Assembly (NCBI GenBank): GCA_025330725.1
Contig: JAIWND010000017.1
Location: 186,001 to 250,000 of the forward strand
Length of the DNA: 64,000 nt
Origin: Chlamydoabsidia padenii
Taxonomy: Eukaryota; Mucoromycota; Mucoromycetes; Mucorales; Cunninghamellaceae
Direction of reading: 5' to 3'
Positions 5,239 through 60,629 of this stretch are shown here, piece after piece. Each line of letters starts with the position of its first letter. The stretch's first letter is position 1. The notes below the pieces were generated by a model. It had not been told where the DNA came from and searched no databases. It worked only from the letters and a program-made list of their open reading frames with translations. The position numbers and the translations under genes were made by a program.

Positions 5239-5250
5239 GCGGTGTTTGAA
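5239..5250 (+). promoter_or_regulatory. Shared promoter motif, IML2-like gene
   Basis: GCGGTGTTTGAA, 164 bp upstream of the start at 5075, on the strand opposite to the gene. It is one of the recurring [TGA]CGGNRTTTRAA matches. The role is inferred from recurrence. Confidence 0.55.
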
Positions 5251-5689
5251 CTTTATAAATTTTATTTCGTCCACCATATGAAAGAAGATCAAAGGTCGCA
5301 CAGACTGTAACTGCAAACTGCAAAGTCGAATGTTATGCGAGTCTTTCATGAATATGTACGAGCGTTATGATCAAATAAATGTGAAGGTTCTCTAGTGTTT
5401 CGTTCACCGAATGTGATATATGTCACAGATCATAAATGATGACACTACATATCCACGTCCCATTTTAACATCAAACCATGCATCCCAAATGGCACTCCTT
5501 GACATATACATACAGAGTAGCAGTAATAAAAATAAAATAAAAAAGTAAAATGGTTTATTGGTGGAATAAATTAAAGGTAAACTAAATGTACAATGACTAT
5601 ACTAAATAGGGGTTCTATTGAGCGGGCAGATAGAGTGGCAAATGAATCCCTGGAAATCCTTGTGAGTAGTCATATCGTAAGCTTCAGAT
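5251..5689. other. Intergenic spacer without visible gene
   Basis: AT-rich spacer between the IML2-like gene and the transposase relic. I see no conserved coding sequence, only short A-rich runs. Confidence 0.5.
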
Positions 5690-6480
5690 ACCCTTGGACC
5701 GGAAGTGTTCCATTGGGTTCAATTCGAGAGAGTATGAAGGAATGGATAATTGATACATGTATTGTCGCATTGTCCATATCCAGATCCGCCGAGATATGTC
5801 AATCTGTGGGGTTGAATTTGATACCACGCATTTCTTCACGTTCACCTTTTTTGCTGAGAAGGTCGATAGGATTTCACTTTTATCGAGAAGTGATTGGATT
5901 GTAATAGGTGTGTCAAGAAGAAATATACATGATTCCCGCTAAAGTCCTTGTTGTTTATTGTTGCACAGAATTGTCACCAAAAGAGAGATTTGCCAATTGT
6001 CAGTGGTATCCAGTCCAGGCACAGGAAGTTAGCATGTATCAATTCTACTTGACATAAAACAAAAAGTGCCAGTATCAGAACCTTGATGAGAGTGATGATC
6101 CACAAGTAGAAAGAGGCTACAGTATACGATATTGTCCCACTTGTTTCTTTATATCCTATTATTTGTATGTCTTACCTTTTCCCTCGGTTTGTATCAAGCC
6201 AAAAAAGAGATTTGTCCACCTGCATTACCAGAGCCAATTGTGCATCTTCAGTAATCGTTCCAACCAGTTATAGTCAATCTTCTTGACTATCAAAACTATC
6301 ACCTTGTGCAATCTTACCATTATAGCCAAAGAGAGGAATTAGAAGAATGTCCATAAAGTCCAACAGGCGGGAAAAGTTGTTGTGTCAAGTACTGTTCGCC
6401 TTGTCAAGATGGTTCCGTTTAGTAATCTCATCGAAAAGAATCATTGTTTCGATAAATGCAGATTGTCTTGTTGAGATGAA
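5690..6480 (-). pseudogene. Relic of a Tc1/mariner-type DDE transposase
   Basis: On the minus strand, short fragments in different frames match the C-terminal half of Tc1/mariner-like (DDE_3) transposases: LDMDNATIH at about 5760-5790 corresponds to the second catalytic Asp (consensus DNApiH), and SYSLELNPMEHFRSKG at about 5690-5740 corresponds to the YSPDLNPIEhfWs block with the third acidic residue. The two blocks are out of frame with each other, and a stop follows soon after the second. No intact reading frame and no clear terminal repeats are visible, so this is a decayed copy. The left boundary comes from the motif and the right boundary is a guess. Confidence 0.55.
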
Positions 6481-7388
6481 CACCAGTGATGATGCTTGAT
6501 TAACGTCGTATTTGGTGATTGTTGTGAGGTGAGACAGGAAATAGGATGTGAAAGTCAAGTACGCGCTGCTGCCATGCTAAAAAGTGAAGTTGAGTTAAAG
6601 GGAGGAGTAAGAAGAATGATTAGGTGTCAGGCAAGTGAAAAAAAAAAAAAAAAAAAAAAAAAAAGCAAACTTCCAGTTCTCCACTTTTTTACAAACTTCA
6701 TTTTTTCAGATCCAGATTTCCTAATCAGGATGACTTCTCCATTGACACCTTATTCAATTGAAAGCTTATAACTTGACCCATAAAAGTTCTGATGCTCATT
6801 TTTAAATTATACTGTCTTTATGCTCAAATGTTGAACAAACGAACATCCTTCACCCTTTTGTAAACTTTGACATCGATCTGCTGAATCTTTCTCCTACTTT
6901 TACTTTTTATTTTCTCGACTTGCTCATACATACACTTTTAAAACAGAAGCTTCATCTTTATCTATGACTACTTAGAAATGTTCATTTCTAGTGATGTTTA
7001 TTTCTACCTTTATCCATAAGCGTACGTTTTTACTTTGGATCATTAATAACTCTCTCATTTATATCCCTGATTAATAACCTTTTTTTAACAGGTTTCTTCA
7101 AGTTTCTCAATCAATAAAAAACTTCAAAACAAAAACAAAAGATCCTTCTATAGCCATCAATCTTACACACAGTTACTTCATAAGCGTAACTTCTGTCTTG
7201 GTACAATATCTACTTTTATTTATTTTCAAGTCCCGCTTTCCAAATCAGGAGCTCTATTTTCTCTTACAACAAGTACATTCAAAAGATTGAATCTTACCAA
7301 AAAGATTCTGGTGCTCACTGCTTTTATTACTTTAAACCTATCTATCTTTACCCTTGTTGCCTATACTCATACCAGAAATAGCCGCAAC
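6481..7388. other. Non-coding AT-rich spacer with a 27-nt poly-A tract
   Basis: No gene seen. An A27 run lies at about 6638-6664. The part from 6770 to 7388 is pyrimidine-rich and contains loosely similar short phrases (for example, variants of ttctgatgctcat and ttctggtgctcac at about 6787 and 7307), which may be old mobile-element debris. Confidence 0.4.
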
Positions 7389-7646
7389 TGTCGTTTGAAC
7401 TATAAGACGAGTATTCCTTTTATATATCAGGTGAAGAATCAGGTTTTTATTAAAAGTAAAGTACACATATATATATACTATTCTATTATCGGAGTCTATG
7501 GCTGAATTGGTTATATCGAAGCATCTAGATGTTAAAAGATTTATCGAGAGAGAAAGAAGAGAAAGAAGAGAAAGGAGAAAGAGACAAAAAGAAATTTCCA
7601 GATTGATATCTAATTTTCCAGAGAAAATCACTTTTTATCTCCGACA
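7389..7646 (-). repeat. 3' LTR of the retroelement
   Basis: 258 bp with TGTCG/CGACA ends. Read on the minus strand it holds a TATATAAAAGG box about 40 nt before its end and an AATAAAA signal before that, plus a long pyrimidine tract (reads as GA-rich on the plus strand). By eye it matches the other LTR at every base. Confidence 0.85.
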
Positions 7647-7994
7647 TCATTCCCCACGGGGAGAAGAATCGACCACGATTCCAAGTAAGGTCCAAAAGAA
7701 AAAGGTCGAATTACCAGGGCAACACCGAGAGGAAGGGGAAAAAAAAAAAAATCAGGCACCACCGAGATCCATACCATAACGTCAATTACATCCATAAAGC
7801 AGTATCCGCTGTTGTCCATATTCATGCTGTTGTTCCTGTTATCGCTAAACACTGCTGATTCACCTTTCCCATTGCTTGTTATTGTTCATTTTGCTGTATG
7901 TCGTACCGTAAAAAAAAGAGAGAAAGAGTCCACCGTTCATCATAATTGTCTTCACACTTGAAACCGTCCATGCCGCCGGCGTGATCCAACTGAA

Positions 7995-8175
7995 CGATCT
8001 AAATCCAATAATCCAAATAATAATCCAAAGTAATCGAGTAATCCATGTAAGGTGTCCAAATAAACCACATAAGTAAACCAAATAATCCGAGTACGTAATC
8101 CGAGAAAGTAAACCAAGTAAACCAAGTAAGTAATCCGAGTCAATAATCCAAATAATCCAAAGTAAATAAACCAGA
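7995..8175. repeat. Degenerate short tandem repeats inside the retroelement
   Basis: The words AATCC and AACCAA recur roughly every 10-12 bp, joined by AGTAA or GAGTAA (for example, around 8030-8170). There is no open frame with recognisable content. This resembles expanded internal repeats of non-autonomous elements. Confidence 0.5.
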
Positions 8176-8864
8176 CAATACGAGCAATCCCAATAATACT
8201 AACAAAGCAGGTTTCATAACCGTCGTAAGATTCATTAGCCGATAACCAGGCAGTAAGTGTGATCCTAATCAATGATCCATAAATCAATGTTCCATCATCC
8301 AATAAGCAAGAATAGTTCGTTGATCCAATAGTAGTCGCCAATAATAATAAAGATCTTCTAATCGAACACAACAGAATTATACATGTCAAGGTCCAAGGTT
8401 CAGCCATTCATTCAAAGCAACCGTGTGAGTCCAGTCATCCAATGAGCAATACCAACATTAAAGAACCATAGTTGGGAGGAAGGTACTAGTATCATCATAA
8501 TAAATGTGAGCCAATCATGCACATCGAACGAGCCAGTAAGAACCAATACTAAGAGAGCCGAATAGTAAAGGAACTGAAGAGAGTGAGCGAGCCAACCAGA
8601 TAATATACTTAAGCACAGTGCTAGCCATAGGAGTCCATCATATACTAATTCAAGAGTCACCGAACCAATAGTATGTATGTAAGCTACGCATCCATATCAC
8701 CAACAGCAAGCCATGTATGTCTTGCTGATTAGACGTCCAAGATTCACCGCATTGTTCCAACCATGTACTTGCCCCTCCTTAAGAATTGTTGTCCCCAACA
8801 ATTCCCAAAGATTCACCAACGCAAGCCAGGAGCAAAGTATCGCCGTACCAAAAGGAAAGCCAGA

Positions 8865-8889
8865 GGATCGAAACGTAAACAAGCTACCA
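8865..8889 (-). promoter_or_regulatory. Primer binding site resembling initiator tRNA-Met
   Basis: On the minus strand TGGTAGC (8889-8883), 8 nt, then GTTTCGATCC (8874-8865). The complement of eukaryotic initiator tRNA-Met has TGGTAGC at its 3' end and GTTTCGATCC over the T arm at the same 8-nt spacing. The T-loop ATCGAAA with A54 and A60 is an initiator hallmark. The middle 8 nt differ from the yeast tRNA and have not been compared with the host tRNA. Confidence 0.7.
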
Positions 8890-8890
8890 G

Positions 8891-9148
8891 TGTCGTTTGA
8901 ACTATAAGACGAGTATTCCTTTTATATATCAGGTGAAGAATCAGGTTTTTATTAAAAGTAAAGTACACATATATATATACTATTCTATTATCGGAGTCTA
9001 TGGCTGAATTGGTTATATCGAAGCATCTAGATGTTAAAAGATTTATCGAGAGAGAAAGAAGAGAAAGAAGAGAAAGGAGAAAGAGACAAAAAGAAATTTC
9101 CAGATTGATATCTAATTTTCCAGAGAAAATCACTTTTTATCTCCGACA
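8891..9148 (-). repeat. 5' LTR of the retroelement
   Basis: Second 258-bp copy. In the minus orientation transcription would start near the end closest to 8891, since the TATA-like TATATAAAAGG lies at about 8920-8930. Confidence 0.85.
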
Positions 9149-9194
9149 CAACAAAACTTTGTACTCCGACATCGGAATGCAAAAGGCAAAAAAT

Positions 9195-9267
9195 TGGAGA
9201 ACCTGGGCATTGATCCCAGTACCTCTCACATGCTAAGCGAGCGCTCTACCATCTGAGCTAGATCCCC
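9195..9267 (-). tRNA. tRNA-Ala (anticodon AGC)
   Basis: 73-nt cloverleaf read on the minus strand. Acceptor GGGGATC pairs with GTTCTCC, including the G3:U70 wobble that specifies alanine, followed by discriminator A. D arm has GCTC...GAGC (A box TAGCTCAGATGGTAGAGCG). Anticodon loop TTAGCAT between CTCGC and GTGAG gives AGC. T arm is CTGGG/CCCAG with loop ATCAATG. No intron, and CCA is not encoded. One mismatch, U6:U67, in the acceptor stem. Confidence 0.93.
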
Positions 9268-9642
9268 ATTTCTTTTTTGTCAATCTCTATGTAGTATATA
9301 AAGCAGATAAGTCGGAGTTTGTAAATTTAAAATAGCGATTGTTAATTGTTCTCTTTATTGATAATAAAATAAACACATATTTATACTATTCTATAATTCT
9401 TGCAACTTCCTTTATGTCTATTACTAATATATACTTGAGGGGAAACTATTGGTGTTGTATTAATCATAAAAAAGGTTGTAGAATCTACCACGATATTCTT
9501 GTGGATCGGTCATTCAATGGCGGAGGTTAACGGAGAAAGGGTAGGGTTTGGCCGTTTCTTTCTCCGCTTTGTACCTGCGGTTACCAAAGGTACTCCACGA
9601 TTGTCAACTGTCGGGACTTGAATTCCTTCACTAGGGCCAGAA
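9268..9642. other. Spacer between tRNA gene and MULE
   Basis: No gene recognised. It contains a phrase resembling part of the retroelement LTR (about 9370-9395), too short and diverged to call. Confidence 0.4.
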
Positions 9643-9812
9643 GGCATTACCACTGTACGATTTTCACTGATAAGTCCCGAGTTTCAAAACCCGCCGTGAT
9701 TTTTTTGGACAAAAAACAAAAACGTTTCTCTTTTCCCCCTTTCCCCCTTTTTAGTCTTTACGTCTCTCTAACTTTTATACATTTTATAACTGCATCAATT
9801 ACTTATCAACAT
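9643..9812 (+). repeat. Left terminal inverted repeat of MULE
   Basis: Begins GGCATTACCACTGTACG and runs to the ATCAACAT phrase near 9812; it is the inverted counterpart of 12700-12900. Both copies carry the same GTTTCTC/CCCCTTT and TTTATACATTTTATAACTG blocks. A few substitutions separate the copies, and the right copy has a long poly-T expansion. Confidence 0.85.
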
Positions 9813-10629
9813 TATTTATTTACAAAAACAGCTACAATACTATTTACAGCAACAACAAAACAATCTATTTACAAGTGATAGGTATAACGATGTGCATCAC
9901 CGTATGTTGTGGGCGTTGTCCTCCTGTTACAACGTCGAATAACTCTATCGAGGTATCTGTCACGGTCTGCTTCCTGAAAACTTCTACTTGTTGTCGTGGT
10001 ATTTTTTGAAGGTATTATCGACAAGTCTCTCTTCTTCGACTTCTCCTTCAGCATCTTGTAGTTGTAATACTGCAAGTCTACGCTGCAGCTCTTCTCGTTC
10101 CTGGTTTCTTTGTCGATGATCACTTCGAACTTGCAATCTCGTTACGCCTGGCCGTAGCCTCTTGGTCGATATATGGTGATGATGATGGAGAAATTGAAGG
10201 AATCCTTAATGGTGATGGAACAGGTGAAGGTGAAAAAGAAGTAATTGGTGACGTGGACTGAAGAGATGGGAATATGTTGTCGGTGGGTGGGAGTGAATTG
10301 AATATAACACTCATTTATGGTGATACATTGTTTATGAATGATGGACTGGTGGAAGGATCGGAATGGGTGGGTATTGATAGATTGTTGATGGGTGGGGGTG
10401 AATCGAATATATCACTCAATGTTGGTGATACATTCGTCATATAATGTGGGCTGTTGGAAGGATCGGAATGAATGGGTATCGATGTGTCCTCGGTATTGGC
10501 GGATGGTATGGTTCTGACAGATGACGGATTTAAATGGTGATGAAGATCTCCTGAACGATGATTATTTTGGTATGAAGGCTTTTGACATAGGATATTTATT
10601 ATAGAACATTTATATATTTATATTTTATC

Positions 10630-11602
10630 TCAATAAAGTTTTTTTTTATTACTTACATCGGATATACTTTGCACGGTAATGAATGGGCTTTGTATGTTGC
10701 GCTTGGTATAAAATTCGAAGGGTAAAATTAACCCATGGGGGCTCAAACGGACAAGATGTTTACACAACAAGAAGCGACTTCGGTAGAAATGAGGGCAGGT
10801 GCACACCCATTGTTCGTATGAGTGTTTATGGTGTTTCATAACCTTGTCGGCGATGATATAGGTGAGTAGATTCATGTGAGGTCTGTTTTATTGGTATGGT
10901 ATTCTTGAGGTGAGAGATTAGAGCGACCTGTCGAAGAAATAAAGCCCCTAAAAGGGAAATTCATGCGAGCGGGATTTCAATTATGTTTTTAGTTTCTGCT
11001 TTTTTTTTTAAAAAATAATAATACCTTCTTGAAAGATGGGATGACAACAATAGTGGTCTTTCATTTTTGCAACTATAGAATCCTTCATTGAATCATCCTG
11101 GAGTATTCTTTCACCTTGAGCTCTCGTTGGTATAAAGTTGGTATCAATGAAAGAAAATTCCGCCCTGGCCTGATGCTGGTTATTAAGAGGGGCGTTTGGC
11201 CCACGTTTCGAACGGAGGTGACGAACCACAGCTTGTTCCAAATGCCACAAGTACAAGCGAACACGGTGAGCACCGAGGACGGCCGTTATTGCCTGGATTT
11301 CCGACACATCTTTGTCACAAAACATAAATGAAGGATCAATCCCGCCTTGTCTAATTACATCGAAGAAGTTGGTTAAGGCTGGGATCTTGTACCCCGTTCA
11401 GAGTTTGCAATTACCCCAAACAGTTCACCATGGCCGCTATTGGTGTTGAATGTAGAATCTACGTGATATTCATTCCCCAGTAGATTCAGCACAAAGATCA
11501 AAGAGTGGTGTTTTGAAAGCATGCGCCATATACCCGACATGATCAACCCACAACAACTTTAGTAAACAAGTAGTATCAAATACAAAAAAAAAAGTTTATT
11601 GT

Positions 11603-11634
<32 letters not shown>

Positions 11635-12701: not shown

Positions 12702-12787
12702 GTTGGTATGTAATTGATGCAGTTATAAAATGTATAAAAGTTAGAGAGAAGTAAAGATTAAAAAGGGGAAAAGGGGGAAAGAGAAAC

Positions 12788-12832
<45 letters not shown>

Positions 12833-12900
12833 GCCAAAAAAAATCACGACGGGGTTTAAAACTCGGGGCTTATCAGTGAAAATCGTACAGTGGTAATGCC
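12700..12900 (-). repeat. Right terminal inverted repeat of MULE
   Basis: Inverted copy of 9643-9812, longer because of T43 at 12789-12831. Its inner edge overlaps the transposase start codon at 12701, so the repeat also serves as the transposase promoter. Confidence 0.85.
12849..12860 (+). promoter_or_regulatory. Shared promoter motif inside the MULE terminal repeat
   Basis: ACGGGGTTTAAA, 148 bp upstream of the transposase ATG. The left repeat has a one-mismatch version (GCGGGTTTTGAA, reverse strand, near 9682-9696). Confidence 0.5.
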
Positions 12901-13070
12901 TTTTATCAAAGTATGAGATCTTGGTTGGGGAGTAATGTGCGTTTTTAACTTTGAATCAGTTTTTACCCAGTCTACGACAAGATTCATACATCCAACAAAA
13001 TTCATCTCTATGGAATGAATGACAAACAATGTCCGTGTTAGTGTAACAGCCAATGAGCATGATGATATCA

Positions 13071-13256: not shown

Positions 13257-13268
13257 TTCAAACTCCGC
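13257..13268 (-). promoter_or_regulatory. Shared promoter motif, GT49 gene
   Basis: GCGGAGTTTGAA on the minus strand, 125 bp before the start at 13393. A CT-rich tract lies between motif and start. Confidence 0.55.
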
Positions 13269-13392: not shown

Positions 13393-14905
13393 ATGCGGGA
13401 AACTTCATCGTCCGTTTGGCGAATGGGAAGATACTTTCTCTTTATTTATACATTCTTCTCCCTCCTTTTTACTATCAAACACTTTTACATGGATTCTGGA
13501 TCAAGTTTGCATTCCTTAGAAACATCTTCTGACGTTGATAATAACAATGTACTTTTACCCAGGACTGGTCAAGATGTACACTTTTATGGATCTGAACAAG
13601 GCGATCCTCAACGAATGACTAAAGTACACTCATGGTCAAGTACTCAAGGTAAAATAGTAGAACATTGAAATGATGATTATTTGTACTAACCAAAAAGGAT
13701 TGATTATACATAGACACCTCAGACATGGTATCGGAGTTGAATATACAGTCCAAACTCTTCTCAAGTGCATTGGGGCCATCCACTTTGAAGCCATATTACT
13801 TCAAAGCTTCACATCTTATCCACCCAAAAGATATCACTTTATCCACTTTGGTCACTCGTAATCGATTCCCGGTACTTGGACGCTTGGCTTCACACTATCA
13901 AGGTAAAGATTATTTTATTGTTTCGGCATACAAAACTAAAAATAACAACTTTTTTTTTTTTTTTTTTCTTCTGCGGAACAGGACCAATCAGTGTTGCAAT
14001 TCATATCAACGATGATAATAGCAAGGATCAAGTAATAAAGGAATTACATGAACTCTATGACAGTAATCCAGATGTACGACAATACGTTGATATTCACCTG
14101 GTGATTGACCCTTTTGATCGACAATTCAACCTGTGGCGAAACGTGGCCAAACTATTTGCTCGAACCGACTATATCATGATGCTCGATGTGGACTTTTATC
14201 TGTGTACCGATTTCCGTCGTCGTATCCTTACCAACCCCAACCTACTGGCCTTGCTGGATTCAGGACGTGGTGCTTTGGTGGTACCGGCATTCGAATACCT
14301 ATTACAAGACGATGGACTAGATGCTGCCACTTTTCCTACTCACAAAGAGGATCTTTTGAACCAACTGGATCAATCCAAAATCGATATGTTTCACAAATCT
14401 TGGCTTAATGGTCATGGCGCTACTAACTATTCCAAATGGTACGGGGCTTCCGATCTGTACAAGGTCACCGATTACAACTTTTCTTATGAACCCTATGTCA
14501 TCTTTAGGAAACAGGGTACTCCTTGGTGCGATGAACGGTTTATTGGCTATGGTGGGAACAAGGCCGCTTGTCTTTATGAATTGTATCTGGCCGGATTGGA
14601 ATACTGGGTGTTGCCTGATGACTTTTTGATTCATCAAACACATTCTTATCCTGAAGACACAAGACGAAAAGAGGTAATTCAAAATAGACAATGATAAATA
14701 GATAGGGAGGGAATCGTTACTAACTTTTTATTTTTATTACCAGCGTCAACATAATCGAAAGTTATACAGCAACTTTCGTGAAGAACTTTGTCTACGGTAC
14801 TCGAGGAAATACATTGCCACTGGTGAATGGGATACTTCGAGGTCTGATAATCTCAAGAATGAATGTCAAAAGATCCGTGGATATAGAACTGCTCTACAAA
14901 ACTAG
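13393..14905 (+). CDS. LARGE-like GT49 glycosyltransferase, type II membrane protein
   Basis: Exons 13393-13648, 13714-13902, 13982-14673, 14744-14905; 432 residues. The N-terminus is a short basic segment followed by one membrane helix (residues 13-33, RYFLFIYTFFSLLFTIKHFY), as in Golgi type II enzymes. The catalytic region matches the GT49 family (LARGE/B4GAT1-like): HINDDNSKDQ, FNLWRNVAKLFARTDYIMML, metal-binding DVD at about residues 216-218, PAFEY, the FVIHQTHS-like block (FLIHQTHSYPED) and GYGGNK. Animal homologues extend glucuronate/xylose matriglycan chains. The fungal acceptor and donor are unknown, so a role in wall or secretory glycan assembly is inference. The first in-frame ATG giving the membrane anchor was chosen. 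Confidence 0.85.
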
Positions 14906-15457: not shown

Positions 15458-16011
15458 TCAACCAACATGATCACTAAAATCAATGTCAAATATACTATTG
15501 GGATCCGACTTTAATTTGGTTCGTCCATCCTTGATCACTCTATAAAAAAAAAAAAGCAGTATGAGTAAAAAGTGTATCCCCCCTTATTATACACTTTACC
15601 TAGCATCTTTGCGCAGATCACCCGTTTCAATACCAAGTTTTGCTTCAGGTGTCAGAGCTTCAAGGACATAATGATTATCACAGTGAGGACAGTATTCATC
15701 TTCTTCTTCATAATCCCTGAATAAAAAAGAATCGTCAGTATAAAAAAAAAGTTGACACAAATCCCATAGATTACTTACGTCATGTTCTTTCTAAAAGCCT
15801 TTTTACACTTTTTACAAGCAAACACCATTTCATCGGTTTTACGTAAAGGATGATCTGAGACTTCTTGATGGCATTCGGCACAGTCAAACCATCGTCTACA
15901 ACAAGGAGCTCGAATCGCAACCTAAAGTCATTAAAAGAGTCGTTTAGTTATCCATGTTTTTCTTTTTGTTGACCACTATGTTACCTGGACATTCAAGATA
16001 TGTTTACACAT
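15458..16011 (-). CDS. CHY-type zinc-finger protein (HOT13-like)
   Basis: Exons 16011-15985, 15921-15779, 15716-15600, 15539-15458; 122 residues. The protein is built around zinc ligands in CHY order: CKH at residues 2-4, APCCRRWFDCAECHQE, DHPL, FACKKCKKAF and CPHCDNHY. The length and order fit small fungal CHY-finger proteins such as HOT13, an intermembrane-space factor that helps recycle the Mia40 relay by removing zinc; RING-linked CHY proteins are much longer. That role is known for yeast HOT13, and assignment here rests on size and cysteine pattern only. Start chosen because exon 1 supplies the first ligand pair in frame. Confidence 0.75.
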
Positions 16012-16104: not shown

Positions 16105-16116
16105 TTTAAATCCCGC
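16105..16116 (-). promoter_or_regulatory. Shared promoter motif, CHY-finger gene
   Basis: GCGGGATTTAAA on the gene's own strand, 94 bp upstream of the start at 16011. Confidence 0.55.
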
Positions 16117-17967: not shown

Positions 17968-18162
17968 TTTATGGCCTTTTGATAGGTAAAGGCAAAAGGA
18001 TTTTTTTAAAAATGGAGTGGGGTGAAGAGAGGAAGTAAAAAGAAGAAGAAAAAGAGGGATAAATCAAACACCCCTGCTGAATTAGCAAAAAAGTGTCGCC
18101 CTAATCGGAGTGTAAAATAAAGTAAAATGGTACATACATAAAGAGTGGGGGGGGGAAGGGGA

Positions 18163-20357: not shown

Positions 20358-20369
20358 TCGGAATTTGAA
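20358..20369 (+). promoter_or_regulatory. Shared promoter motif, MAPK gene
   Basis: TCGGAATTTGAA, 87 bp upstream of the start at 20271, opposite strand to the gene. Confidence 0.6.
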
Positions 20370-21781: not shown

Positions 21782-22338
21782 AGTGAGAGGAGGGAGTGAG
21801 AACAAGAAGGAAAAAAATAAAAATCTAACCCCCACCCTCAAAAAGCAAAATAAACTATTTTCAAACCCCGTATTCACATTCCGACATGTCATCTTTTTGA
21901 AACAATGGATCTCGGACAGTGGAAGCAAAGACAATCAGGGGTGGCCCTGTGATAAAAAAAGGTTAAATGATTGACACATTTTTTTTTTGTTACATTGATA
22001 TCATGATATCTATACTCTAACTTTTTATTAGTCGAGTTGATGTGGATCAGATCAATGAATGGCCCGAATGATTCATCTTTAGTGTATCATCCAAACATCA
22101 ACCCACATCATTCTGATTCCATCAAGATGAAAGCAAAAAGTAAAAGGAGGGGACAAGGAGGAGGATGGTAAAAGGAGGTGGACATGTAAAAAAAAAAAAA
22201 AAAGGAGGCCTCCACTGTTGCAAGCCAATAGAGACAACCCTGATCAGAAGAGGCGGATGAAGACACAACGATCATTAATAGAATGATAAAATACATAAAG
22301 ACAGTTTTATTGTTTATTTAACAAGATAACAATGACTT
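21782..22338. other. Intergenic region between ARD and glutathione synthetase genes
   Basis: Holds the ARD promoter, then a purine-rich stretch around 22140-22200. No gene seen. Confidence 0.5.
21860..21871 (-). promoter_or_regulatory. Shared promoter motif, ARD gene
   Basis: ACGGGGTTTGAA on the gene strand, 79 bp upstream of the start at 21781. Confidence 0.55.
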
Positions 22339-24481: not shown

Positions 24482-25267
24482 TTGAGTTATTTAATGTATG
24501 TGTAATCAATGAGAGAGAGGGGGAAAAGTGGGTTAAAATAAAAAGGAAAAAAGGGAAAAGAGCGGAAGGTTTTTTCTTTTCTTTTCCCAGTTTCACACCG
24601 AGAAGCGGTGTTTGAATCCACTGTGACGCCCCCATCTTGACATCAAAAATGTACGTGTTGTTACTCCCCTAATTAGGGAGGCGGTGATTGAAAAAAGGGT
24701 ACATTTGAAAATGACATGCGGAGATGCATGAATTGATCGACATGAAGTAGATGAAGAAGAATGATGGACTCCTGTACTGTATCCTGTAGTGTCCTATCGT
24801 GTCAAAACAAGGAAAAGGTGGAAAGGAAGAAGAAGAAATAAAAAAAAAGGGAGAGTAAGGACTCTCCAATTATTAAAAATAGGAGGCATGATGGATTATT
24901 GTCTAAAGGAGATGAATTGAATTGTATTCACTTGAATCCAATGTATGATATGTCTGCAGGATAACAGGAGATCCAAAAGAAGGGGGAGAAAGAGGGAAGG
25001 AGAAGGGAGAAGGAGGGAGAAGATAATGGCCTTTTTTAAGTATAGGAGAAGTAAAAAAAAAAAAAGTTTGAAATCGACCTTACATCGGGTGTTCCTTCAA
25101 TATAACCAAAAATAGTTACACAGCACATTGATTTTCTTGATTTCACATATAAAAAGAAACCACGTACAAAATCATTTTGCCTTTTTTTACTTTTTCATTT
25201 AATCTACTTTCTCGGTTTTTTTTCACTTTATCTTCTTTTTTTTTTTTTTCTATTGAATTTCAAAAAT
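24482..25267. other. Divergent promoter region, GSH2 and C2H2 factor
   Basis: 786 bp between two divergent starts. GCGGTGTTTGAA sits near the GSH2 side; purine-rich blocks at 24970-25030; a TTTGAAATCGACC phrase near 25068 recalls the shared motif but does not match it. No coding sequence recognised. Confidence 0.5.
24605..24616 (+). promoter_or_regulatory. Shared promoter motif, GSH2
   Basis: GCGGTGTTTGAA, 124 bp upstream of the start at 24481, opposite strand. The same 12-mer stands before the IML2-like gene. Confidence 0.6.
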
Positions 25268-26081
25268 ATGGAGTCAAATAACTATTGCTTTTCACCCAGG
25301 TGTCAACAACCCCATGATGACCAAGTACTTTCCCCACCATTGACCCCAGCATTATCTCCATACAAGCGGGGTTTAAATTACCGACGTGCCTCCGCCAATG
25401 ATTATCATCACCCTTATTGGATCAATCCTCCACCACCACAACAACAACAACAACCAAGAGCAATGTCCTTTTCTGATGAAACAGCTGCTTCTAGAAAACG
25501 ACCCATGAAGCAAAATAAGCATGCTTGTAACTACCCTCGATGTGGTTGGAGCTTTAAACGATTTGAACACTTGAAGCGTCACATGTTGGTTCACTCAGGC
25601 GAACGCCCTCATGCTTGTCCTTTCCCTGGTTGTGGTAAACGATTCAGTCGTACCGATAATTTTCATGCCCATTATCGTACTCATCAAAAAAAGGCTTTGC
25701 AAAAGAACACGGATGAATTCATCCATCCTCCTCCTTCTTCATTGCCACCTTCCAGCATGAATTCCACAAACTCCGATATTGAAGCCCCGACTCATCCCTC
25801 TCCTCGGGCAAATGCTCCCTTTCGATCTATTCTGACAAACGAGCAACAACCTCATCTTCATCATCAATATCATCATCATCAGCAATACAACCATCAGGCA
25901 CATGATATGCGTTCCAATCATCTTCACCATCACCATCACCAACAACAGCAACAGCAACAACAGCAACAGCAACAGCAGCAACAACAGCAACAACAGCATC
26001 ATCATCATCATCATCTCCATCATCCTCACCAGCACCCTCATCCACAACAACAACAACAACAGCAACAACAACAACAACAGC

Positions 26082-27525: not shown

Positions 27526-27537
27526 TTCAAATGCCGC
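27526..27537 (-). promoter_or_regulatory. Shared promoter motif between SPT4 and the UNC80-like gene
   Basis: GCGGCATTTGAA on the minus strand, 81 bp before the SPT4 start and 194 bp before the start at 27731. An (AT)n run follows at about 27626-27664. Confidence 0.55.
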
Positions 27538-33700: not shown

Positions 33701-36700
33701 AAGACGACAGTAAACAACACAGATGATACGGTTATACAAAGTGGTGGTGGTAATGACGATCGGCATGAAAATGTGGAATCCCGAAACACCAAGGTTCTCA
33801 TGATGACATTGGCGCTTCAAATGCTCAGTAATCACCTCAGCATCGATTTGGTACAAATCTCTCGATTAAAACTCTTGCTAGTAGTCCATATGGGTTTCCA
33901 AGACTGTCAACGATACAATACATCTGGTGAATGGGTGGTAAGCTTTGGAATCATGCATATCCAGCCCAACGATCCAATGTCTTCGGCAATGATCACAAGC
34001 TGTACTCGTGGTCTCAAAAAAGTGATGGACAGCTTCTCTCCTCTCCCGGCCGAAACGGTGGCAACAATGGCACCCGATGTCTTGGAACGGAACAAATTAA
34101 AACTGGCCGAGAATAGTAGTCCCGGTGTGCACTTCATTGATGTGGCTCTGAAACTATTTACATCTGGTGTGGATTTGACCGGCTTGAATCAGGTTGTTCT
34201 CAGGTCTTGGCTGGAAATCATCCTGATTGTTGTATACAAGGTAGGAGTAACCCTGTTAACTTATAGGATAAACAAAAAAGAAAACTAATGACTTTTTTTT
34301 TTCTTTTCCCTTCAATAGCACAATATCCTGGATCACAATTACGAACACAGCATTGTCAGTAGCATGAAACAGATCATCGATCTGATTACCAAAGACATTG
34401 GAGAAGAAAACAAGCTATTGATCCTGGAAATTCTGAAATGCCTACTTCGACAATCTGATCATTTGACCGCCATGGTGCTATCCAAGCAAATCCTCGCTCT
34501 CGGGAAACTAATGACTAGATGCGGCAAGCGGACTTCTGAACCTGTTTTTTTGAAGGCCAAGCAATTCCTCAAGTCTGCCTTTTTACGATTTGCTGTTGCT
34601 GGTCTGTTTGTACTCATCTTCAAGGTAAGACAAAGGAGATGGACAAATAGTGTGGTTACTAATATTATCTCTTTTTTAGAATCAAACGGTATCCAATGCG
34701 AATTCCAACGACGTGGATTTATTCTACGTGCTTCGAACAGTGATCGATCCTGAAGATGTGGTGCCTGACGAAGATGTCAATCATACTGTGTATTTATTAG
34801 ATCAACCGGTGCGTGATGTCATTGATAAACTCCTGAAACAACAAATGGATCGAAAATCATTCTCGACGGTACTACACAACATGAGCCGATACGTGGAATC
34901 GGTGCACTCTCATCCCTACCCCGAATCGGTGTTAAATGGTAAGCATATGGTGTTGGCCATTCATCCAAAAGAGGTGGGTACTGATGATCTTTTCTTCTTC
35001 TTCTTTGTAGATTATGCGGACTTTTTAAATTTAATTGTCAAGTATACTGCTGACTGGAGACGGTCTGATTGGGATGTTAACTCACTTTTTATAATGTCCT
35101 CATTGTTACTGTTGGAGCATCCATACCATTTTCAGGTACGCCTATGTTTAAACGCCGATAAAACTACATTTACTAAGCACTTTGATCTACTGCATTTAGA
35201 TCCTCCTACCTTCAATTCAAGTGCTATTTCGACATGGCATAAGACATTGTAATGTGTTATCCGAAAGTATTGTTAATCTAATGGTTGCTTATTCCACTAT
35301 TGCCACCATTCCTGGGACACCTCCTGAAAACGTCTTCGTCCAAACAATCATAGAGGAAATCCGATCTGGGCTCACGATGAAGCAAAAACTACACAAGGAT
35401 ACATTACTCACTCTACTGCAGGTAAAATTGACTCTGATGAAAAAAAAGAGAGAGATGGGAAACTGATCATCTTGTGTTTATAGTTGGTTCTTTGGGATTG
35501 CGAAGAGCAATATAGCCAATGGTACACGTCTATTGAAGCTCCATACATTGGTGAAATGCTTCCTGGAAAACAACGACAACCCTATTTTGCCAACAAAGTA
35601 ACTGAACTGTTGGAACCTATGGTTAACTTTTTAAAATCATCATCAAATACGGATCAGTTTACCAAAAAAGACTTCAAGACGTACAACACAGTATCTCATA
35701 TCCTCATGTGGATGTGCAACAAGGACAAGAACAACACCCACCGACTACTACATATGCTAAAGGTAATCATATATAGCACTGTGACTTTTTAATCATGCTA
35801 ACACATCATTTTTGTATCTCAGTTGGATGAAACTAGACATTGTCTTCAATTCCTCAACTGGTTTACTTTGTGCTTGCTCAAAAACCAATGCGACTCAATA
35901 CTGGAAATCATGGAGGATGCTCAAGATATATTGACGGAGCTATTAGTGCAAATCTTCAACTCTATACAAATTAACTTTGACCTACCCGACCCTGGATTTT
36001 CTTCCACTCCCTCTGGTGAAGCATTGACGCTTTGTTTTTTGATTCTCAAGACATGGACCTTACTACACCTGCGTGCTATTCATACTGCCGCCATCCTTGG
36101 TCTTTCTACCAATCAAACCAAATCATCCATCTGGCTCTCAGTGTGGCCTTCTATCAGCCGACTGATGTGCTCTATCGATCCGGCGACTCTCACTATGGTA
36201 AGTAACCAAAAAAGTTAAACACTTGATGATGATGATGATACTCATCCTTTGTCCAATAGACTAGTAATGTTGGTCTATCCATCTGGAACATGTTTTTATC
36301 TTTATTACAATTCCTGCACATGTGTCGAAGTGAAGCTGTGATGACCCATGCCTTTGAATGGTGTAACATATTGGACTATATCATATACCAGGTAAATATA
36401 AAAAGGGAGCGAGGTATTGATGATTATTCAAAACCATTAATGATAGATAACCACTTTGACGGTCGATAATAAGGATCCTGCAAATGACGATGACATGCAA
36501 AATACCACGACACAATTACTTGAACTCAAACAAATGGCTGAGCGGACTCGCCGTATGTTTGTTATCCCACCTATCGAAGTACCCGCCATTAATTTGATCG
36601 ATCATCTCTATCTGGAGCTAAAGGAAATCATGCGCCAACAATCGACAACCTTTGTCTATCAAGATCATTGGAACACGGCCGCTGCAGTATCCACATCGAG

Positions 36701-36716: not shown

Positions 36717-37612
36717 CTGAAGAATAGATAATATAAACTAGTATAGATCAATCGTTTGATCTTTTTATAAGAAAATAAATAAAAAAAACTGTGTACGCCG
36801 CTACTGTCTGTGTAGATTGGTTAATGTCAATAAAGTTAATTTTTTTTATTTAAAACAGTATAAACTATCGATCCACTACAAAATTAATGGAGGGACAGAG
36901 GAATAACTAAGGCTAATACAAGGCTAATGTAGATATGTAGGTGTAAGTGTGTGGGTAGGAAGGGGTGGTTGGATCTTGATCATAAGAGATGGTCGAGAGA
37001 CTATCGCCTTGTTAATCACCTGTCGATTCAGCCAAGGAGTACTGTAGGATCAAATGCAATGTAGTCAAACACCCAAATTCATTAAAAGGAAGAGTTTCAA
37101 ACAATTAGTATATGATTCAATAAGGGTTGTACACTGGGTTTCCCCGCAAGTTACATTTAAACGAAGAGAGCTATTGTTTTGACTATGAGTATCATCAAGT
37201 GATCGCGAGCATTTGATACCAGAGAGAGAGAGAGAGCTATCAGTCAAGTCATTTTTCAAAATTGATCAAAAGACATTAGTAGTTTGAGAAGGTTGCGTTT
37301 AATAGTTATCATGTTAAAGTGATGAATAAAGCGAAAGACAAAAAAAAAAAAAAATGCATTTGTATGAAAGCGTGATTTTGAAGACCGCTGAACCAAACCC
37401 TTCCATTTCCGGCAAAATAACTTATCTGGGGAATGATACTTGCGAATGATTTCCTCAGAATCATTCGGCATTTAAACACTCATTCACTTGATGAACATAG
37501 TTTGGTTCAACCCTTGCAATCGGTATCATTGACGGAGAAAAAAAAATACCCCCCCCTCATAGCTTGTGAATTAGAAATGCACTCGAGAAGCCATGGTATC
37601 ACTTGGTGAGTA
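36717..37612. other. Intergenic region upstream of GSK3
   Basis: About 0.9 kb, with AATAAA-type signals near 36773 and a short (GA)n run at 37221-37235. No gene recognised. Confidence 0.5.
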
Positions 37613-37624
37613 TTCAAATTCCGA
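37613..37624 (-). promoter_or_regulatory. Shared promoter motif, GSK3 gene
   Basis: TCGGAATTTGAA on the minus strand, 126 bp upstream of the start at 37750; the same 12-mer as at the MAPK gene. Confidence 0.6.
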
Positions 37625-39859: not shown

Positions 39860-39871
39860 GCGGGATTTAAA
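39860..39871 (+). promoter_or_regulatory. Shared promoter motif, cysteine-rich protein gene
   Basis: GCGGGATTTAAA on the gene strand, 76 bp before the start at 39947; identical to the CHY-finger gene copy. Confidence 0.55.
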
Positions 39872-41035: not shown

Positions 41036-41047
41036 TTTAAATTCCGA
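41036..41047 (-). promoter_or_regulatory. Shared promoter motif between Usp gene and the gene at 41280
   Basis: TCGGAATTTAAA on the minus strand, 126 bp before the Usp start. A 22-nt poly-T run at about 40958-40980 lies between motif and Usp start. No other feature seen in this 369-bp divergent spacer except a TATATAAAAAA box at about 41207 facing the plus-strand gene. Confidence 0.55.
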
Positions 41048-44496: not shown

Positions 44497-44508
44497 GCGG
44501 GGTTTAAA
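44497..44508 (+). promoter_or_regulatory. Shared promoter motif, NRAMP gene
   Basis: GCGGGGTTTAAA, 157 bp upstream of the start at 44340, opposite strand, within a short GC-rich patch that also borders the PRE10 3' end. Confidence 0.55.
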
Positions 44509-47349: not shown

Positions 47350-47510
47350 ACATACATACGAACATAGTTGTTAGTGATCTTGACTCTAAATAAACTTTAT
47401 ATCCTTTGTAAATCGGGGTTTTAAAATATACTGATTTTTGTACTCTTTCTTTTTTTTTAACTTCTCTTCTCAGTTGATTACTGAAGGAGCATAGCTTTTA
47501 TAATATATAT

Positions 47511-50742: not shown

Positions 50743-50939
50743 AACTAGTTTGGTTTTTTTTATCTTTATATATCATTTTGCATTTTGTAGAAATAAAACT
50801 GTGGCATGGCCACACGCTTAAACATTCAACTCCCGACTTTTTAAACTCCCGACTTTGTGCTTGAAATTTTTTTTCAAGCTTCACTCTTTTTTCTTCTTCA
50901 CTTTTTAAAAAAAAAAAACTACTCTTATTATACCACATC
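50743..50939 (+). promoter_or_regulatory. Spacer with imperfect promoter motif upstream of PFS2
   Basis: Reads TTTAAACTCCCGA at 50840-50852, the shared motif with one extra base, next to a second CCCGACTTTTTAAA phrase. It lies 88 bp from the PFS2 start. Confidence 0.35.
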
Positions 50940-53339
<2,400 letters not shown>

Positions 53340-53489
53340 TGGTGTTACAATTTAGACCTTATTTTAGAATTTGCTACGGTATAATAAAAAAAATCCTCTT
53401 TTTTTAACTTTATATGGGTGTTTTATGTTAACTTCGGGTGGATTGGATTTTCCGATTGACTCATCGGATCAAAAAAAATAAAAAAAAAA

Positions 53490-53501
53490 TCGGGATTTGA
53501 A
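53490..53501 (+). promoter_or_regulatory. Shared promoter motif, UGT gene
   Basis: TCGGGATTTGAA on the gene strand, 62 bp before the start at 53563, the closest spacing in the window. Confidence 0.55.
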
Positions 53502-53562
53502 AATATAAAAAAAAAGGGGAGTCGTACTTTTTGTCTCTCTCTTTACTTTATTCTTCTCAGTC

Positions 53563-55412: not shown

Positions 55413-56013
55413 ATTTACTACTACTACCCCCCTCCTCCTCCTCTAGTTTAGATCGTCTCCTTGTTTATGCTTCTTGTCTTGTAATAAATAAAATGTATAT
55501 CCTCCCCAAAAAGGGGGTATTTATAGATAACTCTCATCCCGATTCACATCCGCATGAACGCCCATCACAAGTGATGCTGGTCGGAGTGTCATCCCGCTTT
55601 TTCCGAAAAAGCATCTAAACAAATAAAAAGACATGTTTGGCAGATCACAAGACCAACCATAAAAAAAGAGTTGTAATCAATAATTTTTTATTTATATAAT
55701 ATGGTTTTATAAAGAGAGAGAGAGAGATAAGTTTGGATCATAAATAGTCGAGTACTGCCGTGTAAAAAATAAAATAAAAAAAATAAAAAAAAAGATGGAT
55801 ATATACTAATAAAAAAGTTTTCAATGCATTGAAGAAGGACACATAAGTTAAAAAAGGGGGTAATAAATAGATATAAAAGGACTAGCTTAGAAAGTAAGTA
55901 TTGCGCCAAGCAAAAGACATATACAGAGTTAAAATAAAAAAAGGATGCATAAAATAAAAAACAAACAAAGGGTCGAACTAAACAAGATGGGGTAAAAAGA
56001 AGTGTGGGGGTGG
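55413..56013. other. Convergent intergenic region, UGT and STE12
   Basis: AATAAATAAAA near 55483 after the UGT; A/T-rich with a (GA)n stretch near 55715. No gene recognised. Confidence 0.5.
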
Positions 56014-58776
56014 TTAATTGAATACCGTGGTCATATCATTTGTTGTTGTTAAAGGAGTGTAGAAGGAAGTCAGTGGTGGATAAGACGATGTGGACGATGA
56101 TGAAGAGGTCGAGTGGAAGAGATCGTTCAGTTCTTGAGTCATAGGTTGTTGATAATGGTGATGATGATAATGATGATATTGATTAGGCGATTGGTGTGGA
56201 GGCATGTCAGGTTTAAATGGCGACAACAAGACAGGACCAGGTGGATGGGACAACATATCGTAATAGCTTTGGTAATGAAGGATAGACGAAGGTGATGACG
56301 ATGAGGAGCTCGACAGTTCATCTTCTGGGTGATAAGAGGATAGCATAAAGTCGTTAGCCGAAAATGAAGCATCGATCGGCGTCAGTCCATGATCTGATTG
56401 TCCTGGTGATGCATAAGGAGAATAATGTTGCTGCTGATAAGGTTGGGTATCCACAGACAAGACGACATCCTTCATTTCCAAATCCATATCTTCAACTGGG
56501 CTAAGCATACCCTCAATGCACGCTGTCGATGCACCTGTTGTCTCTGTGTTGAGTGATGGGTGGGATAGTAATGTCGTAGATGCACCAAGCAAATCGTTCT
56601 TTCCATAATGTTGATACATGCTGCTGTCGGTTGCATGAATCGGTCCTGCTTTTGTTGTTGACGATGGAAGAGAACCATCCAGATGATGGTTGTTGCCACT
56701 AGTCGAGCGATGATGATGGTGATGATGGTGATGATAATGGTCGTCCGTATCGTCGTCAGTTTCATCCTTGATCATATAATCATCCCTGTGTATTCCAATC
56801 ATAGCGTCGTGTACCCTGCGATGTTGATCCAAAGTGGTTGAACATTGGAATGATTTCGTGCAATATTCACACACAAAAGTTGTTGGTTGAGAAGACACAA
56901 GGAGAGAAGACGTCGAGGCAGAATTCGCTAATCCATCTTGATCCATTCCACCAAAAGAAGTATCCATCATGGCTGACCAGCTTTGAGGTATCACCAGACT
57001 TGAAGAAGAATCAGAATCAGAAGTTTGTTGGTGCATAAACATAGGAGATCCTTGGTAACGCTGTTGTTGGGGGTATTGATGATGAGATTGATGTCGACTA
57101 CCAAATTCAGCCGCCATTGCTGCCATTGCCAATCGACTCGTGGGTTGCTGCACTGCATTGCCGTTAGCTCCATGCACAGAAACTGTAGATGATGTACGCA
57201 GATGGCAATTGGTGTGACGACGAATGCGGTCTGGTCCACCACCAACAGATGATTGTTGCTGCTGTTGATAAAGTGGGTGAGATTGTTGTTGTTGCTGATT
57301 TCCCGAGGATGAGACCGAGGTAGCACGTCGTCTTCTTTGCTTATACGTAGGTGATCCATCAAACAAAGTCAAGGCACCAAAGATTGTCTTGGTTTTCTTG
57401 AGAGTGTTGGAATCCAATGATTTTGAAGGCAAGACAACACCATTGTTCAATCGTTGCTTTTGTTGCTGATTCGCATGGCTGGCATGATGATGATGATGGT
57501 TAGCTCGAGGTTGTTGTTGCTGTTTACGTTGTCGAATGTTCAGTTGATGCACCCCATCCACTAAAGTATCTTGTGATCGATCCGAGTTGAATGACAATGA
57601 AGAGGAAGGTCGTCGTCCGATAGTGTCGTCGTAATTAAAACCAGAGGTCGAGTCGCTGGCAATCGATTTGGTGGTGGATGAGCTTGAATTATGTTGACGA
57701 GTGGCCAAGGAAGAGGGAGGTGCAAAGTAAGATCCATGGCTCATTCGATACCGTTGTCGTTGTTGCTTTTGTTGCTTTTGGATCAAATGTTGTTGTTGAA
57801 GGTAGCCTTGATCTTGTCCAAAGTCAGCAGGTACAGAATTCACTCGAGATCGCCTGGGTTGAACCCGTTCCGAGAGCCCAGGGTCAATAAAGGCCGTGGT
57901 TTTGGTCGAGGTTGGCATCATCACAGGACATGGTTGAAGATGCTGATCTGGTGAAGACAAGGTAGGAGAAGGTGATCCTTGTGACATGTTGGTATCTAAA
58001 AAAGTAGTATGTAAAAAAAAAAAAAAAAAAAAAAGGGAGCGAGTAAATATGTGGTCAAGGTTACCTGAGTTTTAAAATTACTTACCCAAAGATAGACAAG
58101 TAGTATTGTTGACTTCTTCTTCCAAAGCATGAGCAGTCGCCGCCGCCGACATGGACATTGATTTTCGTAGTTGATCAAACAATTCTTGAGTAGTATCCAG
58201 AGAGGTTGAGGTAGCAGGTTCCGCAATAGCCGTCGTGGTAGGTTCCAATCCCATCTTTTCACGCTTGAGATCACGCTCTAAGGCATCCAAAAAGATGCGA
58301 TCATGAGGGACAGAGTACCAATAAAACACCTTTTGCTTCTTTTGAGTTCGAATGCAGTTGTTTTTGTAAAGCATATCCAGTAAATCTGATTTAGGTTCTT
58401 CCAGACGAGCATCAATTCCAGGCTTGAGATTACGGAGGTCGCTAAAGATACCTTCTTCAAACTTTTTCGCATTAGTGATAGGTCGTCCAAAGGCGTGGAA
58501 TCGAAAGGTGAGTGATCGCACAATATCGGTTCCCGTCACAAAAAAGAGTCCATTCCAAAGCACACAAGAGATAGATTCGCCAGTCGGCAAATGAAATCGT
58601 TTGAGTGGTGGTGAAGAGGGATCCCAATTGTTTGCAGCAGTGGCCAAGAATAGCTTGAGGTCATCAATCAAAGCAAGTCGACTCGTTTCGTTTTCGTTAG
58701 TGGGCTTGATCATTCCAAAGTTGGCGCTGTTGTTATTGTGGATCATTGGCGTAGGTGATTCTTCTCTTGATGACAT
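56014..58776 (-). CDS. STE12: STE12 transcription factor
   Basis: Exons 58776-58086 and 57995-56014; 890 residues. Homeodomain-like STE domain at residues about 35-170: LKLFLATAANNWDPSSP, FHLPTGESISCVLWNGLFF, GTDIVRSLTFRFHAFGRPI, LEEPKSDLLDMLYKNNCIR, QKVFYWYSVPHDRIFLDAL. End-point factor of the mating/filamentation MAPK cascade. The second exon is Gln/His/Ser-rich and disordered apart from one C2H2 finger (FVCEYCTKSFQCSTTLDQHR with C-x2-C-x12-H-x3-H). Filamentous ascomycete STE12 carries two tandem C-terminal fingers and yeast none, so the single finger here is notable. Divergent from the PAK kinase gene across 1.85 kb. Confidence 0.93.
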
Positions 58777-60629
58777 TGTGTCAAAAGTAAAAGTGATAAA
58801 TCAAGTATGGTAATTAAAGGGGGAGGAGGGGGTTTTTAAAAAAAAAAGTGTATATAAAAGGGGAAGAAGGAGAAGGGGGGGATTAAGTAAAATGGGGAGA
58901 CTGATAAGTGAGAAGGGCGTATAAAAGGTTGTCGTGTGGTTTTTTTGTTTTTGTTTTGGTTCAGCAATGGTGAAGTGATTTACAAACAATATAAAAAAGA
59001 GAAGAGGAGTATTTGAAGATAATAATACAAAACAAAGGTAAAAGAAGAATAAAGTAAAAAGAGAGAGAGAAAGGTAAAATAAAACAAAAATAAGAAAGAA
59101 AAAGAAAAAAAAGTTGGGTGGTGAAAAAAAAAGAAAAAGAAGGAAGAAGAGAGGGTAAATAAAAGAGGGGAACAGCTATTGAAAAGAAATACCCAAGTTG
59201 TAAACTCCGCTTTAGTCCACCAATCAAATGACGAGATTCAAACTTGAGGTTGTTTATCCATCATGCAGGCGAAAAAAGGGGGGAAGGTTGAGATTTGAGT
59301 TACCACACATCATGGAATAAGTACCGCCACAAATTAATGTTTCTTTTTACTCTCCACTCTTTATTGCATACTTGTGCAAATAGGTTGGGAGGATAGATCA
59401 TTCTATCCGTCATGTCAAGTCGGAGTTTGAAACCGACGATCACCCACTTGCTATGCCATCACTACCCACAAAAAAGATACAAAAAAAAAGAGCGGACTTT
59501 TTCTGTCATCACTCCATCCCCTGATTGTGTCACAATGAAGATCTTTATTTGAAAAAGACTGAATATCTCATATATATCCTTAAGGTCACATGAGGTGAAT
59601 CATGGTGAACGAAAATAACCCGCCAAGTCCTCCTGCATCCCCACTAAAGCATCTTCACTAAGCAGACGGATCGAAAAAAAAAAAGCTTTGGTTTGTTGTT
59701 TTTTCATGCATCTCTATCAATGTATGACACTTGCTGCCCGGATCACCCATAAAGGGAAAGTCAGTTCTAAATGCCTGGGTTTTGAAATCAACCCAACAAT
59801 GAATCATACATTTTAGTATATAGGAACATTCATGATGGGTGCATTCATGTATCTTTAAAAAAAAAAAAAAAAGTCAAATCACTCGCCCACATGATGCGCA
59901 TACATAATACAGCACCTCATCTAGGAACATGTCCCACATAAATCATCATATCTTGCCAAACAATCAACAAAAGCTGTCTTCTCTTCTTTTTTATTACTCT
60001 GTTTGGGATTCTCTTTCTTTCTTTACACCCAATGTCCACGTGGAATCCTTGTCTTTCTTTGGGCAAATAATGCTTGATTCACTACATCCAGTTACACTAA
60101 TCAGTTTCTTGTTGACAATGCCGTTGGGCGATTCTTTTTTTTTTTTACTTCAATCAACAAACAATCAAAAAGTGCTGTTGGCCATAATTGGTACAAAGTA
60201 TGCATATCCCCATGGATCACCTGTTAAATAGACCGGGAATCAAACTGTCCTTTTATTAACCATTTTCTTCAATTCATGCTGATACTTTATTTAATCGCCG
60301 ATTGAATGTGGATTCCTTTTTCCTCTTTTCTCATTCGTTAAAAAAAAAACTTCCCTTCCCCTCTCCCTCTTTCTCCTTTTTTTCTCCTTAGATATTCCCT
60401 TTGACTATTATTCTACTTGTTTCCCCCCCCCTCCTTATTTATTAGTAGCCTAAAAAACACACTAGTTACTTTTTCTCTTTTGAATTACTTTTACTAGCCT
60501 TTAACATCTCCCTCACTCAATCGATAACTGCGACAAAAAGGTAAAAGAAACAACGAAACAATTCAAACTGGAACTTGACTCTATTTTTTTTCTTCTTTTT
60601 ACAATACCCAACACTTGAATCAATAGGAC
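58777..60629. other. Long divergent intergenic region between STE12 and PAK genes
   Basis: 1,853 bp, the longest spacer among the intact genes. Polypurine block 58990-59165 next to STE12; distal shared motif at 59420; GAAACA words at about 60547 and 60554 that recall the STE12 pheromone-response core (TGAAACA) without its first base; CT-rich leader before the PAK start. No coding sequence recognised. Confidence 0.5.
59420..59431 (+). promoter_or_regulatory. Shared promoter motif, STE12 (distal)
   Basis: TCGGAGTTTGAA, 644 bp from the STE12 start. A one-mismatch copy, GCGGAGTTTACA, lies at 59199-59210. Distance would fit a long 5' leader or a leader intron. Confidence 0.4.

Follow-up and report, generated by a model that had tools for sequence, protein, structure and literature searches.

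A strong motif upstream of most predicted genes in Chlamydoabsidia padenii, a candidate general regulatory factor site

We describe a sequence motif that stands upstream of most predicted protein-coding genes in the fungus Chlamydoabsidia padenii (Mucorales, Cunninghamellaceae). It was noticed in a 64-kb stretch of the genome (C9:186001-250000 of the assembly; hereafter, the window) as a recurrent 12-bp pattern, [TGA]CGGNRTTTRAA. We consider it fairly probable that an abundant, sequence-specific protein binds this motif, a single putative general regulatory factor similar to Reb1 and Abf1, acting at most protein-coding promoters. We favor this reading because a single strong sequence is found before most genes, near the start, in intergenic DNA, and with almost free orientation.

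Sequence, position, and spacing of the motif

Genome-wide figures given here are pattern counts over the 34.2-Mb, 95-contig assembly, and all others come from a close reading of 344 kb (1% of the genome, in two blocks), which includes the window and a further 280 kb (28 loci, L001-L028). The exact pattern matches 9,089 times genome-wide (4,558 + 4,531), and the same pattern read backwards, our control, only 81 times (40 + 41). The ratio is about 112, and with such counts a chance origin of the motif is excluded. We also made a matrix from the exact matches and re-estimated it; trained and counted on the same 344 kb, it gives 250 sites at a cut-off of at least 12 bits (249 once overlapping sites are merged), against 9 for the reversed matrix and a mean of 11.85 for 20 column-permuted matrices. 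Extrapolated from 250 sites per 344 kb, the genome would hold roughly 25,000. The refined motif is about 14-16 bp long and reads approximately [AG][GT]CGGG[AG]TTTGAAWW or, in detail, [AG][GT]CGG-G/N-[AG]-TTT-[GA]-AA-[AT][AT]. Its CGG triplet is nearly invariant (C 97%, G 98%, G 99%), as is TT.AA (93-99%), and the base ahead of CGG is G or T about equally often. The 2-bp spacer between CGG and TTTRAA is rigid: it occurs 132 times, while spacers of 1, 3, and 4 bp occur 3, 16, and 5 times, respectively. In an unbiased 8-mer count over the 200 bp ahead of predicted starts, the five most enriched words are all fragments of this motif.

The motif lies largely between genes. Gene models were obtained with an unsupervised hidden-Markov gene finder written for the purpose, which predicted 128 genes with 739 exons and a median intron of 71 bp. 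Among 106 exact matches, 92 are intergenic (103 kb of sequence), 10 intronic (54 kb), and 4 exonic (187 kb). Matrix sites are denser in divergent and tandem than in convergent intergenic DNA (2.29, 2.15, and 0.92 per kb, respectively; the tandem class has 105 sites in 48.7 kb). A matrix site lies within 200 bp upstream of 79 of the 128 genes, within 300 bp of 93, and within 500 bp of 110, whereas circularly shifting the sites (500 shifts) gives means of 17.1, 24.1, and 35.7 genes, with a maximum of 50 at the last distance. The original prediction had set enrichment over the last 200 bp ahead of starts as its own check, and this is clearly present; its claim that the motif is general, belonging to no single pathway, is supported by the 110 genes with a site within 500 bp, with gene functions taken from the names it gave. 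The pattern persists without repeat-borne sites (65 genes within 200 bp and 92 within 500 bp) and in the 97 genes that encode 150 aa or more in two or more exons (62 and 84).

Sites are most frequent 60-150 bp ahead of the start codon, with 70 at -150 to -61 and only one at -60 to -1; 15 repeat-free sites fall in the bin from -350 to -300. Orientation toward the gene is nearly free: of the sites in the peak, 42 have the same direction as the gene and 28 the opposite one (P = 0.12; 35:23 and P = 0.15 without repeats). The coding strand shows a strong bias toward pyrimidines and T runs (pyrimidine fraction 0.74-0.79) in the stretch 40-80 bp downstream of promoter-proximal sites, which is probably the transcription start region.

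Neighboring sites keep characteristic distances. Expected pair counts come from 1,000 shuffles in which each site stayed within its own segment (intergenic, exon, or intron). Pairs 40-140 bp apart are strongly depleted (3 observed, 28.9 expected) and pairs 180-260 bp apart enriched (52 versus 22.6), with none of the 1,000 shuffles as extreme. The result holds for the 190 sites that remain when repeats are removed (2 versus 16.5 and 26 versus 12.1, again none of 1,000 shuffles as extreme). In this repeat-free set, pairs at 260-300 bp are few (1 versus 5.4 expected), and closer than 40 bp there is no avoidance (9 versus 5.2). Of its 26 pairs at 180-260 bp, 18 are inverted, 10 with the CGG ends facing and 8 with the TTTRAA ends facing, and 8 have the same direction. 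Genome-wide, exact pairs with facing CGG ends occupy 13 distinct places at 81-111 bp, 59 at 176-206 bp, and 31 at 211-241 bp (18, 91, and 47 when counted over both strands); same-direction exact pairs number 7 at 81-111 bp, 131 at 211-241 bp, 19 at 286-316 bp, and 46 at 456-486 bp. We detected no helical phasing of pair distances at periods of 9-12 bp (100 of 131 pairs). Distances of 195-199 bp are scarce among CGG-facing pairs (2 of 59), as are distances of 223-226 bp among same-direction pairs (5 of the 100 listed); this unevenness may be due to chance or to repeats.

A general regulatory factor and its rivals

In 12 ascomycetes, general regulatory factors set the nucleosome-free regions of promoters, with a repertoire that turns over between lineages; in yeasts the task falls to Reb1, Abf1, Cbf1, and others (PMC2897762). 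By analogy, the putative C. padenii protein would bind the motif irrespective of gene function and would keep the DNA accessible as a nucleosome-depleted stretch, and the open DNA would give the transcription machinery a fixed starting place; in opening promoters, the factor would act like budding-yeast Reb1 and Abf1. The preferred spacing could then have either of two meanings. One nucleosome may sit between two occupied sites, since a distance of 180-260 bp would hold a nucleosome (147 bp) flanked by 16-56 bp to the left and right; judged by geometry, this is possible. Alternatively, the two sites might frame one open region. For comparison, work in yeast places nucleosome edges about 60-80 bp from Reb1 sites and gives linkers of 12 to 82 bp for different remodelers (PMC8163753). 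We also put forward, tentatively and as the less likely part of our proposal, that one putative protein organizes nearly all promoters through a single rigid 14-16-bp sign and a spacing grammar on the nucleosome scale (40-140 bp avoided, 180-260 bp favored), that is, one dominant barrier factor instead of a yeast-like mix.

Several observations weigh against these proposals. The gene models rest on our own unsupervised predictions, one of which was checked against a public protein, and for 18 of the 128 predicted genes the 500 bp upstream contain no site (36 of 128 with repeats left out). At twice the spacing (420-540 bp), the number of pairs does not differ significantly from expectation once repeats are removed (16 versus 13.2). 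The genome-wide same-direction counts are inflated by a motif-bearing tandem repeat of 240 bp. Midway between 23 repeat-free pairs, the DNA is AT-rich, with a GC fraction of 0.30-0.33 compared with 0.38-0.41 at 40-120 bp to one side and 0.36-0.38 to the other, and there is no excess of 10-bp periodicity, with repeats included or not. Because the DNA midway is AT-rich, a pair may frame an open stretch, which such midpoints would rather suit than a nucleosome. Three ideas about spacing lost support or gained none: a period of about 230 bp, whose strongest-looking evidence, the genome-wide same-orientation counts and an apparent second peak, fell away once repeats were masked; a nucleosome-like sequence between paired sites, which neither the composition nor the periodicity of the midpoints revealed; and a model with unequal factor-to-nucleosome distances, which fitted the facing pairs and failed on the small local sample of back-to-back pairs.

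The same features of position serve to judge the main rival, a directional core-promoter or start-site element (TATA-, initiator-, or downstream promoter element-like) read by the basal machinery. The sharp peak 60-150 bp before start codons, the absence of sites in the last 50 bp, the pyrimidine- and T-rich stretch downstream, as expected near start sites, and the weak same-strand excess (42:28) would all suit it. However, measured from start codons, the motif has neither one orientation nor a fixed distance, being spread over about 90 bp, and extra copies stand another 180-260 bp upstream. We therefore regard such an element as unlikely, and give a general regulatory factor site the higher probability; the original prediction, which had proposed a general core-promoter or start-site element, was right about the generality and, on these grounds, is less well supported as to the class. 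Our confidence is lower still in a chromatin-marking signal, either a guide for adenine methylation or an origin-recognition site. The VATB context is common for adenine methylation in early-diverging fungi, and GGATTT in the major form of the motif does hold an ApT in that context. Yet about 39% of the sites have a G at this position and thus no ApT, and some 25,000 extrapolated sites would seem too many for origins. In the available portion of a paper on Mucorales methylation, N6-methyladenine (6mA) in Phycomyces is mostly at VATB, and the 6mA motifs it gives do not include this element (PMC11258239). The least credible alternative, in our opinion, is that dispersed repeats carried the motif through the genome. 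Flanks like those of 56 of the 249 sites do recur within the 344 kb, and a single family of 240-bp tandem units accounts for 33 of the 56; the other 193 sites have no such flanks, and leaving repeats out abolishes neither the enrichment nor the position peak nor the spacing, so that this explanation was rejected after masking.

Two known elements resemble the motif closely enough to be considered, and we think each of them highly improbable. One is the composite site of the DREAM/MuvB cell-cycle complex, in which a cell cycle-dependent element (CDE), the E2F-DP half, stands upstream of a cell cycle genes homology region (CHR), the LIN54 half. LIN54 binds the CHR as TTYRAA, with the CDE four bases upstream (PMC4974476). 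Our motif likewise has a GC-rich block upstream of a TTTRAA block, TTTRAA fits that consensus, and the genome has six E2F/DP domain matches above cut-off. Against it, the spacer here is 2 and not 4 (132 versus 5 sites), the first base is G or T about equally, leaving no GCG core, and CGG..TTC[AG]AA is rare (10, versus 132 for CGG..TTT[AG]AA; TTTCAA is commoner, with 19). Moreover, the motif precedes most genes and not a cell-cycle subset, and no LIN54-type domain was found, which is no proof of absence: neither PF03638 nor a LIN54-like composite query gave a candidate CXC protein, in a search run without a positive control genome, although the composite query matches the LIN54 structure 5fd3 at 2.9e-42. 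We rejected this element on the spacer, the first base, and the third T. As an observation apart, E2F/DP domains (six matches) together with an undetected LIN54-type CXC domain make a partial loss of MuvB possible. The other is the tRNA B box, as an extra-TFIIIC or insulator-type site, which the reverse complement of the motif, TTCAAATCCCG, resembles. The B box consensus is GGTTCRANTCC, in which C56 and C61 are invariant and R57 is mostly G. The form TTCAAATCC fits TTCRANTCC and so looks like a B box, and this string is printed in several tRNA papers, judging by title among the matches listed. Nevertheless, conserved and variable positions are swapped: the equivalents of C56 and C61 reach only 59% and 62%, that of R57 is A in place of G (the third T of TTT, 96%), the preceding G appears in only 6%, and GTTCGA, the form usual in B boxes, is seldom seen. 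In addition, a single tRNA gene was found in the 344 kb. The conservation pattern led us to reject the B box.

Sites in the window and repeats outside it

The window contains 17 exact matches (10 forward, 7 reverse). All 14 that the original prediction reported are in place, and it had overlooked three (25366, 35147, 37465); the distances it gave from motif to start agree with our predicted starts. Gene names below are those of the original prediction; the GT31-GT32 gene was checked, and its product is 100% identical to a public C. padenii protein (both 987 aa). Distances are from motif center to predicted start codon. The IML2-like gene has its motif at 5239-5250(+), 170 bp ahead of the start at 5075(-), and the MULE transposase-like gene at 12849-12860(+), 154 bp ahead of 12701(-). 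For GT49 (13257-13268, -), hand-read candidate ATGs at 13393 and 13423(+) lie 125 and 155 bp off; a further ATG is just 21 bp from the motif, and the automatic model overran the start, beginning earlier (13139). The CHY zinc-finger gene has a match at 16105-16116(-), 94 bp from a hand-read candidate ATG at 16011(-); here, the automatic model joined this gene to SAM50. Next come MAPK (20358-20369, +; 93 bp), ARD (21860-21871, -; 83 bp, with a second matrix match at 21869-21886), and GSH2 (24605-24616, +; 130 bp, with a second matrix match at 24679-24696, 206 bp from the start). The match at 27526-27537(-) is 85 bp from the start of SPT4 and also 303 bp ahead of the long UNC80-like gene model, in an intron of which lies another pattern match, 35147-35158(-).

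GSK3 has two copies, at 37613-37624(-), 133 bp from the start, and, further upstream, at 37465-37476(+), 279 bp from it. The remaining exact matches precede a cysteine-rich protein gene whose model has one internal stop (39860-39871, +; 81 bp), the NRAMP gene (44497-44508, +; 163 bp), the UGT gene (53490-53501, +; 67 bp), with the highest score in the window (22.9 bits), and STE12 (59420-59431, +; 649 bp), while the one at 41036-41047(-) lies between the Usp gene and a short predicted gene, 130 bp ahead of 40910(-). The near-matches that had been noted ahead of three more genes are genuine matrix matches: 18103-18120(+) for SAM50 (13.8 bits, 253 bp ahead of 17858(-)), 47411-47428(+) for the GT31-GT32 gene (19.3 bits, 92 bp ahead of 47511(+)), and two adjoining sites for PFS2, 50821-50838 and 50837-50854(-), with 16.3 and 15.4 bits, 249 and 233 bp ahead of 51078(+). 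The C2H2 gene, by contrast, had been said to lack the motif. This is not fully accurate, since an exact match lies in its first coding exon at 25366-25377(+), 98 bp past the ATG and within the reading frame, and a matrix site is found 581 bp upstream. The gene may in truth begin further downstream, or the match could be accidental.

The repeat family mentioned above consists of dispersed, noncoding units about 240 bp long that form arrays of roughly two to four, typically with one motif copy each. A profile matches it 38 times in the 344 kb, 23 of them above 100 bits, with a median length of 242 bp and none in the window. Arrays are found at L001:9430-9983, L003:7012-7533, L005:5972-6569, L007:2711-3691, L009:3754-4326, L016:6548-7489, and L018:7794-8367, with three further ones in L028, L026, and L021; Rfam gave no match to the family in the 8 of 28 loci searched (80 kb). 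To the left of the window on C9, four motif sites with their flanks recur between approximately -24007 to -18880 and -7329 to -2568 in window coordinates (L028/L027 and L026), in reverse order, on the opposite strand, and with 94-99% identity. To judge from the sequence, this looks like a large inverted duplication. The only tRNA gene found in the window is tRNA-Ala (AGC), at 9196-9267(-); none was found in L001-L028 with bacterial search settings, by which intron-bearing tRNAs may be missed.

Comparison with known systems

The original prediction knew of no described element of this form in these fungi, and our searches of the open-licence literature, by the topic of early-diverging fungi or by motif letters, likewise returned no published description among the matches listed. 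The motif is novel in sequence and in lineage, and known in kind. Promoter architecture outside Dikarya is hardly known, and a strong common motif gives a direct handle on it. The motif could predict promoters in unannotated Mucorales genomes and offers a bait for pulling out the factor. It also makes directly testable which factor replaced Reb1, Abf1, and Cbf1 in early fungi. If it is common to relatives, it could be of use for expression vectors and for judging gene models. If the one-factor reading is true, the promoter chromatin of an early branch would be written into DNA by one dominant barrier factor.

As to the nature of the binder, we can only guess, from the CGG and its AT-rich stretch, at a Zn2Cys6 zinc-cluster head binding as a monomer. 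An invariant CGG with an AT-rich extension is present (TTTRAA-WW), and 46 of 74 candidates in the genome have Zn2Cys6 domain matches. The yeast Stb5 site, CGGNSTTATA, is of comparable build. AmyR of Aspergillus binds CGGAAATTTAA (PMC5468973), a half-site with a similar arrangement of CGG and a subsequent AT-rich block. The spacer is 3 there and 2 here, and in the 40 bp to the left and right of 85 sites our motif has no second conserved triplet. The known factors that bind Zn2Cys6 half-sites are, moreover, pathway regulators and not general factors.

The closest parallel in kind is offered by the sites of the yeast general regulatory factors (Reb1, Abf1, Rap1, Cbf1, and Rsc3). Like them, the C. 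padenii motif is a strong intergenic element near the starts of genes of many functions, nearly free in orientation, with copies spaced on the nucleosome scale. It differs from them in its letters, and it is known so far as sequence. It differs also in its reach: in yeasts, several factors share the work (PMC2897762), whereas here a single motif has a site within 500 bp upstream of 110 of the 128 predicted genes.

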